Assembly (NCBI RefSeq): GCF_027594425.1
Contig: NZ_CP115159.1
Coordinates: 1,043,001 to 1,107,000, forward strand
DNA from: Zunongwangia sp. HGR-M22
GTDB lineage: Bacteria; Bacteroidota; Bacteroidia; Flavobacteriales; Flavobacteriaceae
DNA: 64,000 bases
Direction: 5' to 3'
Part shown: positions 41,550 through 45,961 of the stretch, one piece after another
How positions within the stretch are numbered: position 1 is the first letter of the stretch
How the letters are laid out: every line of letters starts with the position of its first letter
The notes under the pieces: generated by a model
What the model was told of the DNA's origin: nothing
Database searches by the model: none
Seen by the model: the letters and a program-made list of their open reading frames with translations, nothing else
Made by a program: the position numbers and the translations under genes

Positions 41550-43418
41550 CTATATTTTTTTAGGTTTCTCACTAGTAATCTTGAAATCATCTTTTTTTGT
41601 GTCCATAATCATATAAAACTCATCAATCGTATCACTACTAGACGAGCTATACGTAACATTCCAGGAAGAAGAACCCTTATGTCTGGCTTTGATCTTTACA
41701 CTATTAATCATTCCTGAATCATCACGCTTCAATTTTTTAATATCAATTTCAATATTATACTTTTCTTGGATCGTTTTGACCATGTTTTGGATGGCGGCAT
41801 CTGTTTCATTAGGATGAATGGTATATACGAAGGTGGTAGATTTTTGAGGTAATTTACCTTTATAGTTTTTGGTATATATTTCGATTACACCATTTTCGGT
41901 ATTTTTATCATCATATTTTTCAGCTGCTTTTTCGCCTTTTAGTACATTAATAGAGGCGATTTTTATTGAAGATAAATTATTCAATTCTTCAGTTGAAGCA
42001 GTTTTGTTATTTATAATTATTAAAGGAGCATTTTCTTGATTAATCTTTTTTAGTGTAAATCCGTCACCAGATTTTGTAACCTTGGTCTTGCCAAGTAAAT
42101 AAATTCTAGTATTATCTGTAGTTTTTGGCTTTTTCAGTATTAAGTTATCACCTTGCGTTTTGGTGGTATATAATTTAACGCCATAATCTGCTACTTTTTC
42201 ACCGTAAAGCGCCACCGCTTTTTTCCCGTTAAGATAGGTTATATTTTGGATGTTATCTTTATCTATTCTGCTAAGGAAATTCTTGTTGGGCTGCGGCATT
42301 CCATTTAAAATATACAAGGTGTCCTTTAATACTTTCAAGGAGTTTTTCTGAGCATGAAAAGTCGCATTGCCAGAAATAGCAGTTTCCTCATTTTCTTTTT
42401 GCTGAATGTTTGGAGTTGAAGTTTTTTCTGAACTTAAAACATCAGATTTAGATTTTTTTACTGAATTTTCCTTTTGAATAATTGTTTTTTCATCAACGAT
42501 TTCTACTTTATCGTTTTGTTGTTGCGAATTTTCTACTTCTGAAGATTCTAAAACAATACTTTTTGTTTTCAGGTTAAAACTGTACAGGAATAAGCATAAA
42601 AACGGAATAACTACAAGGGTTTTCCACGAGGTGTTTTTCTTCTTCGATTTGTTAAGCATAATAATACGTTTTTTGATGAATGATTGATAAAATTGATTAG
42701 TCATAGCCGGCTGCAAACCTACACTGGCCATAACCAGCGCTTTTTGGTATTCTTTTTTGCTGGCTATTGTTGCTACTGCATCTTGATCGGCTAGAAATTC
42801 TAAATTTTGGACGATAATTTTTTTGTACAGCCAGATAAACGGATTAAACCAGAATACTACACAGAGTACAGAAATGAAGATCACATCCAAAGAATGCCAT
42901 TGCTTTGCATGAATTTGCTCATGCTTCAGGATTAGTTTTAGGTCTTTTTGATGATGTTTTTCAGGATTGTAAACAATATTGTTGAAGAAGGAAAATGGTT
43001 TTATATCCTTATTCGTTTTAACTAATTTCAAATTCTTGTATTTTTTTAAGAATCCGGAATTAATAATCTTTTTTAGGCTGTAGATCTGAAAACCAAATCG
43101 TAAGCTCATTAGTGATACACCAAATAGGTAAACATACAAACCAATTTGCCACCAATTTGTAGGTTCTTCAATTACCACATTTTCTTGCTGAATGTCAGCA
43201 TTCATAACAGTATAAGGTATTTCTGTGGATGGTAATTCTATGTATTCTTGCTGAGTGAGATAGATAAGTGGCAAAATTAAAGAAGTCGCCAAACCTACTA
43301 ATAGAAACTTGCGGTTTTGCATAAAACTAGTCTCTTGTTTTAGCAGAGTAATGTAGGCTAAATAGAAAATAGCAATTAATGCTGAAGATTTTAACAGATG
43401 GGATATAAATTCTTGCAT
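41550..43418 (-). CDS. M56/BlaR1-like membrane metalloprotease with TonB-plug-like repeats
   Basis: 622 residues. Four N-terminal membrane helices (to about 290) enclose the M56 zinc site KHEQIHAKQ (HExxH near residue 165) and the downstream glutamate in EFLADQDAV. After a membrane helix comes a Glu/Lys/Ser-rich linker and three blocks resembling the end of TonB receptor plugs: INGMPQPNKN...TYLNGKKAVALYGEKVADYGVKLYT and INVLKGEKAAEKYDDKNTENGVIEIYT. In BlaR1 systems the protease triggers loss of the BlaI repressor; the repressor gene lies 47 bases upstream in the same operon. No penicillin-binding sensor domain is present, so the stimulus differs from beta-lactam sensing. Confidence 0.88.
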   Translation of the reverse strand: MQEFISHLLKSSALIAIFYLAYITLLKQETSFMQNRKFLLVGLATSLILPLIYLTQQEYIELPSTEIPYTVMNADIQQENVVIEEPTNWWQIGLYVYLFGVSLMSLRFGFQIYSLKKIINSGFLKKYKNLKLVKTNKDIKPFSFFNNIVYNPEKHHQKDLKLILKHEQIHAKQWHSLDVIFISVLCVVFWFNPFIWLYKKIIVQNLEFLADQDAVATIASKKEYQKALVMASVGLQPAMTNQFYQSFIKKRIIMLNKSKKKNTSWKTLVVIPFLCLFLYSFNLKTKSIVLESSEVENSQQQNDKVEIVDEKTIIQKENSVKKSKSDVLSSEKTSTPNIQQKENEETAISGNATFHAQKNSLKVLKDTLYILNGMPQPNKNFLSRIDKDNIQNITYLNGKKAVALYGEKVADYGVKLYTTKTQGDNLILKKPKTTDNTRIYLLGKTKVTKSGDGFTLKKINQENAPLIIINNKTASTEELNNLSSIKIASINVLKGEKAAEKYDDKNTENGVIEIYTKNYKGKLPQKSTTFVYTIHPNETDAAIQNMVKTIQEKYNIEIDIKKLKRDDSGMINSVKIKARHKGSSSWNVTYSSSSSDTIDEFYMIMDTKKDDFKITSEKPKKI

Positions 43419-43465: not shown

Positions 43466-43825
43466 CTATTTTTTATTTTCAATGATTTCTAAAATTTCTC
43501 TAAGTTCTTCAGCACTAATTTTTTCTTCTTTCGCAAAAAAGGAAACCATGCTTTTATAGCTATTGTCAAAAAATCGTTTAGTAGCGATATTCATAAACTG
43601 TTTTCTATAGGCTTCTTTGGTAATAATAGGGTAATATTGATGCGTCTTGCCATAAGCTTTATAAGAAACATATTTTTTTTCTTCGAGATTCCTTACAATG
43701 GTCGAGACCGTATTGTAGTGCAATTTCTGTTCTTTGATATGAGGTATAATTTCTTTTACAAAAGCTTTTTCAAGCTTCCATATGATCCTCATAATTTCTT
43801 CTTCTTTATTGGTTAACTTTTCCAT
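43466..43825 (-). CDS. BlaI/MecI/CopY-family repressor
   Basis: 119 residues: winged-helix DNA-binding domain (LTNKEEEIMRIIWKLEKAFVKEIIPH ... LHYNTVSTIVRNLEEKKYVSYKAYGKTHQYYP) and a helical dimerisation tail (FFDNSYKSMVSFFAKEEKISAEELREILEII), the standard family layout. It normally represses its own operon until cleaved or destabilised by the partner M56 protease. A TAGTTTTCAAACTA palindrome at 43874-43887, 49 bases upstream of its start, is the likely operator, and the same motif precedes the next upstream gene. Confidence 0.94.
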   Translation of the reverse strand: MEKLTNKEEEIMRIIWKLEKAFVKEIIPHIKEQKLHYNTVSTIVRNLEEKKYVSYKAYGKTHQYYPIITKEAYRKQFMNIATKRFFDNSYKSMVSFFAKEEKISAEELREILEIIENKK

Positions 43826-43873
43826 GTCGTTGTCTGTCTTCAGATATGTAGATGATAAATATAACGAAAAAAA

Positions 43874-43887
43874 TAGTTTTCAAACTA
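43874..43887. promoter_or_regulatory. BlaI operator candidate upstream of blaI
   Basis: 14-base palindrome TAGTTT-TC-AAACTA between the carboxypeptidase-regulatory-domain gene and blaI. It is the same motif as at 44923-44936, consistent with autoregulation. Confidence 0.62.
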
Positions 43888-43904
43888 AAAAAGTAGTAAT
43901 TATT

Positions 43905-44900
43905 TTAAAGCGCGTAATTTAGTGGTAAGCATAAAGACATTCTCGCCTGTCCCATTACGCCAGAAATATTAAAAGCTCGAGTAGGAGTGAAGTTTCCAAA
44001 TTCGTCGATGTAAAACGGACTTTTATATATAAGACCAGATTGATTATTTTTATGTAATATGCTAATCGTGTCTTTAGTCATCGCTACTTTAGTAAATTGA
44101 TGTTCTTGCTGAATATCAAAATATTTATATTCCGGAACCTGAAATCTATCATAAAAAATCTTAAAATCATTTTTGGCAAGTTCTTTTTTAGCAAGTGATC
44201 TCATAAACTGAAGTAGTGAACCTTCAAAAGCTTCTTCGCGATTTTTTAGATGACGTTTTCTTGGTTTCTCCTTTAATTCTTTATAGAAACTGCTTCCCTC
44301 GTAAAAGGTGTATTCAATTAAATTAAGGCCAGAACTACCAATGCTAAATTTGATGGTGAAATCTATAAGCTCATATTCTATAAAATATCCCAAATGATTA
44401 TTTTTAATTAATATAGGCTCTTCTGCGTATGCCATAAGTTCGTTTTTAGAAGGGCTATATTTAAGTTTTATAGCATCTTCATTAAGTATTTTGCATTTTA
44501 GCGAAGCTTTTGTATTGCCCAAAAATTCTCTGCGGAAGTAATTAAGTTTCCTCTTGCGAGACCAAGGATCGGTTTCCAATATTACCGTGCCTAGCTCATC
44601 CATACTCTCTTCAAGAAACACGATGGGATAATTTTCTTCTTTAAAAACTGAAATATTAGAAACAGTTCTTGTTTTATATCCAATAGATCTAAAAATTAAT
44701 GGTGAAATATTAGAAGCCGAGTTTTGAATTTTGAAGAATCCCTTAGTATTACTTACGGTTCCTAAGCTAGTGCCATCAAAATAAATGGAAACTCCTTGTA
44801 GAGCAGTCGAATCTTTTGCGCTTAATATTCTACCAGTATATACTTCTTGAGCATGAAGTTGCAAGGAGAATAACAGGCTTAAGAATAAAACATATTTCAT
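43905..44900 (-). CDS. Secreted protein with carboxypeptidase-regulatory-like domain
   Basis: 331 residues. Signal peptide MKYVLFLSLLFSLQLHAQ, then a CarboxypepD_reg-like beta-sandwich (about 20-100: TGRILSAKDSTALQGVSIYFDGTSLGTVSNTKGFFKI...RSIGYKTR), followed by ~230 residues of a conserved but uncharacterised beta-rich domain (RKRKLNYFRREFLGNTKASLKCKILNEDAIKLKYS). This architecture is common in Bacteroidota surface or periplasmic proteins without assigned role. It is the first gene upstream of blaI and the M56 protease on the same strand and carries the BlaI-type palindrome in its promoter, so it is a likely output of that circuit. Confidence 0.83.
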   Translation of the reverse strand: MKYVLFLSLLFSLQLHAQEVYTGRILSAKDSTALQGVSIYFDGTSLGTVSNTKGFFKIQNSASNISPLIFRSIGYKTRTVSNISVFKEENYPIVFLEESMDELGTVILETDPWSRKRKLNYFRREFLGNTKASLKCKILNEDAIKLKYSPSKNELMAYAEEPILIKNNHLGYFIEYELIDFTIKFSIGSSGLNLIEYTFYEGSSFYKELKEKPRKRHLKNREEAFEGSLLQFMRSLAKKELAKNDFKIFYDRFQVPEYKYFDIQQEHQFTKVAMTKDTISILHKNNQSGLIYKSPFYIDEFGNFTPTRAFNISGVMGQARMSLCLPLNYAL

Positions 44901-44922
44901 ATAGTAAATATAACTATTTTAT

Positions 44923-44936
44923 TAGTTTTAAAACTA
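44923..44936. promoter_or_regulatory. BlaI operator candidate in the divergent promoter region
   Basis: Perfect palindrome TAGTTTTAAAACTA, flanked by further half-sites (AACTA near 44912 and TAGTTTTT near 44942). It lies 23 bases upstream of the carboxypeptidase-regulatory-domain gene and 78 bases upstream of the divergent antiporter gene, so either or both could be controlled. Confidence 0.62.
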
Positions 44937-45013
44937 TTTATTTAGTTTTTAATTCATTATTTCATTAATGCGATAGCTTTAAAGATTAAGTTATATTAGC
45001 ATAAAAAAGTCCT

Positions 45014-45961
45014 ATGGATATTGTTTACATACTAATTGGGTTGGTGTTATTAGTGGTAGGTGGTGAGTTTTTAGTACGATCTTCTGTCGCTCTTTCTTTC
45101 AAAATGAATATCTCAAAAATGGTCATCGGGTTAACTGTGGTTTCTTTTGCGACTTCAGCACCAGAATTATTAGTGAGCTTACAGGCAGCCATGGAAGGAT
45201 TTTCAGATATATCACTAGGAAATATTATAGGATCCAACATTGCAAATATTGGATTAGTATTAGGAATCACAGCACTTATTTCTCCTATTGCCGTAGATCG
45301 CGATTTCTATAAATTCAATTGGCCGGTAATGATGATTTTTTCATTTGCTTTATTTTTCTTTTTATTAAATGGGGAAGATATAGACCGTTTAGAGGGAGGA
45401 GCTTTAGTTTTGGGACTATTAATTTACTTGCTTTTCTTGATTATTCGTAGTAGAAAAGTAAAAGAAGAAGTGGTAGAAGAGGTAGATGATAGTTTAAAAA
45501 GCACTTCTTGGTTTAAGATTATTATCTGGTTAGTAATCGGTGGAGCTGCACTGTATGGGGGATCAGAATTGTTAGTCGACGGATCTGTTTCGCTTGCTAG
45601 AGATCTAGGCGTGAGTGAGCGTATTATTTCAGTAACGATGATCGCGATAGGAACTAGTATTCCCGAGCTTGCTGCATCGGTAATAGCCGCCTTAAAAAAG
45701 GAGAAAGCCTTATCTTTTGGTAATTTGATAGGTTCTAATATTTTTAATATTGCTTCAGTTTTAGGGATAACTGCTTTAATAAAACCAATTGTAATGCAAT
45801 CTCAGGAAGTTTTGACCAATGATATTTATTGGATGATTGCTTTCTCATTTATATTGGTTCCTATGGCTTTTATTCCGAAGAAATTTCTATTTGGAAGAAT
45901 TAAAGGCTTGGTTATTTTAACAGGATATTCAGTATTTCTTTATATCACGATTTTTAAGTAA
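45014..45961 (+). CDS. Calcium/sodium antiporter (CaxA/YrbG type)
   Basis: 315 residues, ten predicted membrane helices in two inverted halves of the CaCA superfamily. The two alpha-repeats are clear: GLTVVSFATSAPELLVSLQAA with GNIIGSNIANIGLVLG, and MIAIGTSIPELAASVIAA with GNLIGSNIFNIASVLG. It exchanges Na+ for Ca2+ across the inner membrane. It is divergent from the BlaI-circuit genes and shares the promoter region containing the palindrome at 44923-44936. Confidence 0.95.
   Translation: MDIVYILIGLVLLVVGGEFLVRSSVALSFKMNISKMVIGLTVVSFATSAPELLVSLQAAMEGFSDISLGNIIGSNIANIGLVLGITALISPIAVDRDFYKFNWPVMMIFSFALFFFLLNGEDIDRLEGGALVLGLLIYLLFLIIRSRKVKEEVVEEVDDSLKSTSWFKIIIWLVIGGAALYGGSELLVDGSVSLARDLGVSERIISVTMIAIGTSIPELAASVIAALKKEKALSFGNLIGSNIFNIASVLGITALIKPIVMQSQEVLTNDIYWMIAFSFILVPMAFIPKKFLFGRIKGLVILTGYSVFLYITIFK

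Follow-up and report, generated by a model that had tools for sequence, protein, structure and literature searches.

The blaI region of Zunongwangia sp. HGR-M22 probably encodes a BlaI/M56 repressor-protease circuit that acts via twin-dyad operators on three envelope-related promoters, a reading to which we assign a probability of about 0.78. It is based on a conserved sequence element restricted to three promoters, on the match between the spacing of this element and one of the BlaI paralogs, and on an intact protease motif in the partner protein. The following features were identified in the window, i.e., the whole stretch of 64,000 nt that was analysed:

45014..45961, + strand: gene for a CaCA-family Ca2+/Na+ antiporter (TIGR00367, E 8e-72), conserved neighbour in divergent orientation, not among the predicted targets in HGR-M22
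44992..44999, + strand: separate -7-like box of the antiporter gene, TATATTAG, present in relatives as TATCTTCG or TATATTCG
44912..44947, - strand: putative operator of the CarbopepD_reg gene, twin dyad without a mismatch, sole perfect copy in the genome, also upstream of the orthologs in five other Zunongwangia genomes
44923..44936, no strand: 14-mer palindrome, inner half-sites plus putative junction of two dyads
44905..44912, - strand: -7-like box TATATTTA of the CarbopepD_reg gene, one-base overlap with the operator
43905..44900, - strand: CarbopepD_reg_2 envelope protein of 331 aa with a hydrophobic signal at its N-terminus (PF13715, E 5e-13)
43874..43887, no strand: 14-mer palindrome, inner half-sites plus putative junction of two dyads
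43863..43898, - strand: putative blaI operator, twin dyad with 2 mismatches (TACTA, TCGTT)
43856..43863, - strand: -7-like box TATATTTA of blaI, one-base overlap with the operator
43466..43825, - strand: blaI, 119 aa, Penicillinase_R winged-helix repressor of paralog group 1 (Pfam PF03965, E 3.5e-32)
41550..43418, - strand: BlaR1-like M56 membrane metalloprotease, 622 aa (PF05569, E 1e-14; Plug, E 2e-5; HEQIH at residues 166-170)

The 14-mer palindrome and the 36-bp twin-dyad element

An initial annotation of this DNA had described the same 14-base palindrome upstream of blaI and of the CarbopepD_reg gene, and a search of the window confirmed both copies, TAGTTTTCAAACTA at 43874-43887 and TAGTTTTAAAACTA at 44923-44936, as the only 14-mer matches without any mismatch. 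With up to three mismatches, 116 matches were found in the window compared to 106 expected, i.e., no enrichment. In the whole genome, six exact copies stood against 0.9 expected under an order-2 Markov model, and four of the six lacked operator context. Two of these four were located inside ORFs, one overlapped a stop codon with convergent genes on either side, and one was found 7 bp upstream of an ORF for a small membrane protein. Since none of the four displayed the outer half-sites of the 36-bp element described below (4, 9, 9, and 8 mismatches), the 14-mer by itself is a poor operator predictor. It was rejected as the operator on these grounds and also because Zunongwangia orthologs break its inner T/A pair (TAGTTTAATAACTA) and keep the half-sites. 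A DUF4199-type ORF associated with the fourth intergenic copy (L015) was likewise discarded as a target, as the outer half-sites are absent there.

Alignment of orthologous blaI promoters revealed a longer element of 36 bp, AACTA-N6-TAGTT-N4-AACTA-N6-TAGTT, with two adjacent dyads whose centres are 20 bp apart and of which the half-sites and their spacing alone are kept. The 14-mer corresponds to its inner TAGTT-N4-AACTA. As judged from the sequences, the dyad itself is AACTA-N6-TAGTT, because a second group of BlaI paralogs keeps this unit unchanged with a gap of 2 instead of 4 bp between units. The palindrome thus appears to mark BlaI operators, as had been proposed, but it would be the junction between two dyads and not the binding unit.

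A pattern search with this 36-mer at up to two mismatches resulted in three sites in the 4.04-Mb genome, with an expectation of about 0 according to a Markov model trained on stretches of the genome, and at up to three mismatches in five sites. The reversed pattern used as a control had no match in the genome at up to three mismatches, and simulated genomes (n = 12) contained no 36-mer at up to two mismatches and, when three were allowed, a mean of 0.25 per genome. Both sites with three mismatches (1411490 and 2170916) fall into coding sequence, namely for a LacI-type regulator and a transposase, and were not regarded as targets. Repeated matches beginning with AACTGGACAAATAGTT in the genomes G003, G019, and G035 resembled the transposase sequence of such a three-mismatch site and were left out of the counts. 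The three promoters carrying the element were present in 6/6 Zunongwangia genomes; among 60 genomes searched, the element was detected in 24 and a control match in 2. Many genera carry an additional, third dyad upstream. In genome G020, a perfect 36-bp palindrome unassigned to any regulator, AACCAAAAAAGTAGTTTGCAAACTACTTTTTTGGTT, was observed about 140 bp upstream of a 514-aa ORF (L104:2469). The missing enrichment of the 14-mer in the window and its four copies without operator context would fit an explanation of the repeated palindromes as chance matches in A+T-rich intergenic DNA; however, the statistics of the 36-mer and its conservation across genera, with half-sites conserved where spacers vary, already refute this explanation, to which we give next to no credence.

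Organization of the CarbopepD_reg-blaI-M56 genes

The genes for the CarbopepD_reg protein, BlaI, and the M56 protease follow each other on one strand, separated by 79 and 47 bp, respectively, and a terminator scan yielded nothing above chance and no terminator between the first two. Based on the common strand, the gap of 79 bp, and the lack of such a terminator, the CarbopepD_reg gene probably heads the blaI operon, so that one operon with two BlaI-controlled promoters is expected. The N-terminal domain of the CarbopepD_reg protein matched the SusC NTE domain (9hfj, target TM 0.82), and no clear match was obtained for the rest of the protein. Homologs in Cellulophaga, Winogradskyella, and Flavobacterium have no group-1 blaI within 5 kb. 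The earlier proposal that a BlaI operator precedes a surface-protein gene as well as blaI itself agrees with the retention of both sites in all six Zunongwangia genomes.

TAnnTTTG is the -7 consensus of Bacteroidota promoters, and a box of this type follows the operator in blaI orthologs, too. Since the last half-site abuts such a box at blaI and at the CarbopepD_reg gene, the natural reading would be that bound BlaI occludes RNA polymerase at both promoters; a sigma-70 scan resulted in nothing above chance. Only 4 nt separate the end of the -7-like box of the CarbopepD_reg gene (44900-44912 region) from the annotated ATG, and orthologs are similarly crowded. Due to this crowding, either a leaderless mRNA or a start codon further downstream is conceivable.

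Two related genomes displayed peculiarities in this region. G013 harbors a parallel arrangement, in which a gene of the PF00144 class C beta-lactamase family plus TPR is inserted between operator and blaI (L114:9435-10853); a PF00144 gene as head of the blaI operon was identified in G013 only, hinting at a cell-wall link of the BlaI circuit. In G005, the closest relative, the blaI region appears three times near contig ends (C2 at about 36000, C3 at about 4308000), one copy with stop codons, which probably reflects overlapping contig ends.

The initial annotation had also raised the possibility of calcium export under BlaI control, i.e., that the operator forms a divergon and governs the Ca2+/Na+ antiporter gene as well. 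In 12 of 20 relatives (14 if two with one inserted gene are counted), the antiporter gene and blaI indeed lie next to each other in divergent orientation, and in some relatives (L107, L114) the third dyad comes to within about 25 bp of the antiporter -7 box. However, the antiporter gene possesses its own conserved -7 box, the distance from the operator edge to this box varies among relatives between about 25 and 146 bp (44 bp in the window), and other genera retaining the operator lack the pair (L117, L119, L120, L123). The shared neighbourhood is ancestral synteny, and given the separate -7 box of this old divergent neighbour, control of the antiporter by BlaI is unsupported in HGR-M22. We therefore rejected it as a target on promoter geometry and regard a divergon as quite improbable.

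A third site upstream of GLPGLI-family genes

The third 36-mer site (3473447-3473482, 2 mismatches) is located 2.4 Mb from blaI. Downstream of it, three GLPGLI-family genes (TIGR01200, E 1e-56 to 1e-59) were identified in an operon that also encodes an 881-aa outer-membrane-type protein with a CarbopepD_reg domain and is divergent from an SLC13 transporter gene. In genome G004, the site is duplicated, and its second copy (L102, position 6792) precedes a GLPGLI gene with no SLC13 gene beside it, for which reason the SLC13 transporter was rejected as a target. Thus, the suggestion that the circuit reaches beyond its own operon would hold for the GLPGLI operon, outside the window, but not for the CarbopepD_reg gene, which probably belongs to the operon of blaI. 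None of the three predicted targets, namely the CarbopepD_reg gene, blaI-M56, and the GLPGLI/outer-membrane genes, is a beta-lactamase or PBP gene.

In front of the GLPGLI genes, the position of the element is upstream of the presumed -33 region and not against the -7 box, so that regulation could differ and the effect is less certain there. This different geometry, the 2 mismatches, and the occurrence of the site in Zunongwangia only, among the genomes searched, would be in line with a regulon confined to the CarbopepD_reg-blaI-M56 operon, with the GLPGLI site serving another regulator of similar motif or being non-functional. Against that stand its spacing of 5-6-5-4-5-6-5, which is the same as at blaI, its retention in six genomes, its duplication along with the GLPGLI genes, and the different spacer or half-site of the other two BlaI paralogs; altogether, a regulon of one operon seems rather unlikely, and we prefer three promoters. 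Since genuine sites in other genera are almost always confined to the start of the blaI operon, the additional targets seem to be a peculiarity of Zunongwangia.

BlaI paralogs and their operator codes

The deduced BlaI protein covers positions 1-114 of the 115 positions of PF03965, in line with its assignment to Penicillinase_R, and matches MecI (1okr, E 1.2e-8). Its own promoter carries the twin dyad, which predicts autoregulation through BlaI binding. Apart from two further weak matches, which were not counted, the genome encodes three BlaI paralogs, which differ in operator type (a spacer of 4; a spacer of 2, with one exact genomic site; and TCTACATTTGTAGA). The promoters of group-1 blaI genes displayed the twin dyad with spacer 4 in 22/26 distinct orthologs and with other spacers in none, those of group 2 the same dyad with spacer 2 in 13/22, and those of group 3 the classical TCTACANNTGTAGA in 19/19. 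Conversely, TCTACANNTGTAGA was detected in 0/26 group-1 promoters at up to one mismatch, and the TACANNTGTA core is thus not part of the group-1 operator.

These operator types fit the recognition helices. Groups 1 and 2 share the helix sequence YNTVSTIVR (HYNT[VLIM]ST in group 1, AYNTVST in group 2) together with the AACTA half-site, and group 3 combines TTVATLLKR with a TACA half-site. Given this fit, avoidance of crosstalk between groups 1 and 2 is predicted to be a matter of spacing. As their helices are near-identical and their AACTA-N6-TAGTT dyad is the same, with centres 20 and 18 bp apart, respectively, we tentatively propose, at somewhat less than even odds, that the dyad-to-dyad distance insulates the circuits of BlaI paralogs within a cell, specificity being read by dimer-dimer contacts rather than by bases. 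The two further BlaI/M56 pairs of the HGR-M22 genome, with their own operator types, are located at L016:6495-6857 and L017:6464-6829, and the M56 protein of group 2 carries a TonB C-terminal domain.

The M56 protease partner

The HExxH motif of the M56 protein (residues H166-E167-H170) was invariant in 19 orthologs. A predicted model (pLDDT 73, pTM 0.48) matched the membrane/protease domain of BlaR1 (8exr, target TM 0.66) in a Foldseek search, so that the protein is modelled as keeping the BlaR1 membrane/protease fold. After the protease domain, about 70 residues of the model form a disordered linker, which leads to a pair of similar plug-like domains and a domain at the C-terminus. Pfam revealed no penicillin-binding or class D beta-lactamase-like domain, the PDB sequence match to BlaR1 ended at residue 314, and, BlaR1 itself aside, no beta-lactamase fold occurred among the top Foldseek matches. 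All three lines agree with the original description of a sensor without a beta-lactam-binding domain. Against the NCBIfam blaR1 equivalog, the protein reached 31 bits at a cut-off of 400. In Z. mangrovi and Z. atlantica, two tandem M56 genes (about 411 and 720 aa) follow blaI; the first is shortened and lacks HExxH in Z. pacifica and is absent in HGR-M22 (comparison loci L050:6442-9874, L051:6443-9854, and L049:6442-9662).

Proposed circuit and comparison with known systems

From these data we infer how BlaI would bind DNA, repress its targets, and be cleaved in response to a signal. BlaI dimers would bind the two adjacent AACTA-N6-TAGTT dyads, probably as a pair of dimers, and at the blaI and CarbopepD_reg promoters would cover the DNA that adjoins the -7 box on its upstream side, thereby holding down the CarbopepD_reg-blaI-M56 operon from two promoters. 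BlaI may also repress the third promoter, 2.4 Mb away, and with it three GLPGLI-family secreted proteins and the outer-membrane-type protein. The M56 protease would sense an envelope signal via its periplasmic plug-like domains, which replace the penicillin-binding domain, and would then cut BlaI near F96-F97, leading to induction of the envelope proteins and of the sensor itself. In the 1okr alignment, the scissile N101-F102 of MecI corresponds to F96-F97 of BlaI within a conserved SFF. This change from N-F to F-F and the 2 mismatches of the blaI operator in Zunongwangia are points against the circuit.

The BlaI-BlaR1/MecI-MecR1 systems of Staphylococcus aureus and Bacillus licheniformis are alike in that a Penicillinase_R repressor is encoded beside an M56 HExxH membrane protease with the BlaR1 membrane/protease fold, and in their autoregulation via more than one operator. 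The mec/bla operators of S. aureus, ACTA-CATATG-TAGT, probably share the same outer frame. In contrast, the Zunongwangia half-site AACTA lacks the inner CA/TG of TACANNTGTA, the sensor displays plug-like repeats instead of a penicillin-binding domain, the targets include no beta-lactamase or PBP, and the scissile N-F reads F-F. Three operators were described for the BlaI system of B. licheniformis (PMC3305447). In Clostridium thermocellum, DAP-seq and EMSA revealed GTCTAT/GACTAT half-sites for BlaI_0696 and BlaI_1845, of which two inverted-repeat pairs are required, and regulons of 1-3 operons including their own (PMC8457756). These half-sites resemble the AACTA(T/C) of Zunongwangia, but they belong to a Firmicute, and targets and sensor were interpreted as a beta-lactam response (PMC8457756). 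The copper repressors CopY/CopR are members of the same superfamily and often use two operators per promoter, but BlaI is regulated by proteases and CopY is not (PMC7253601). Unlike the Zunongwangia BlaI, they have the operator RNYKACANNTGTMRNY, a metal-responsive Cys-X-Cys motif, and no protease partner; BlaI contains no cysteine in its 119 aa and scored 51 bits against TIGR02698 (CopY) at a cut-off of 122.

More than one BlaI operator, autoregulation, and a small regulon are already known from other systems. The largely open-access literature searched contained no description of flavobacterial BlaI operators or of targets of BlaI/M56 pairs. Judged by this literature, three aspects are new, namely the operator code of flavobacteria, the predicted envelope regulon of three promoters whose sensor lacks a beta-lactam domain, and the paralogs separated by spacing. 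Altogether, the circuit looks real and seems to work like the known penicillin-resistance switches, but with another sensor in place of the one for penicillin. BlaI/M56 pairs occur across the Flavobacteriaceae, the group studied here having no penicillin sensor in HGR-M22, and the operator code makes these pairs testable regulons. GLPGLI-family proteins thereby gain a predicted regulator, and the spacing between sites may keep sister BlaI repressors apart.
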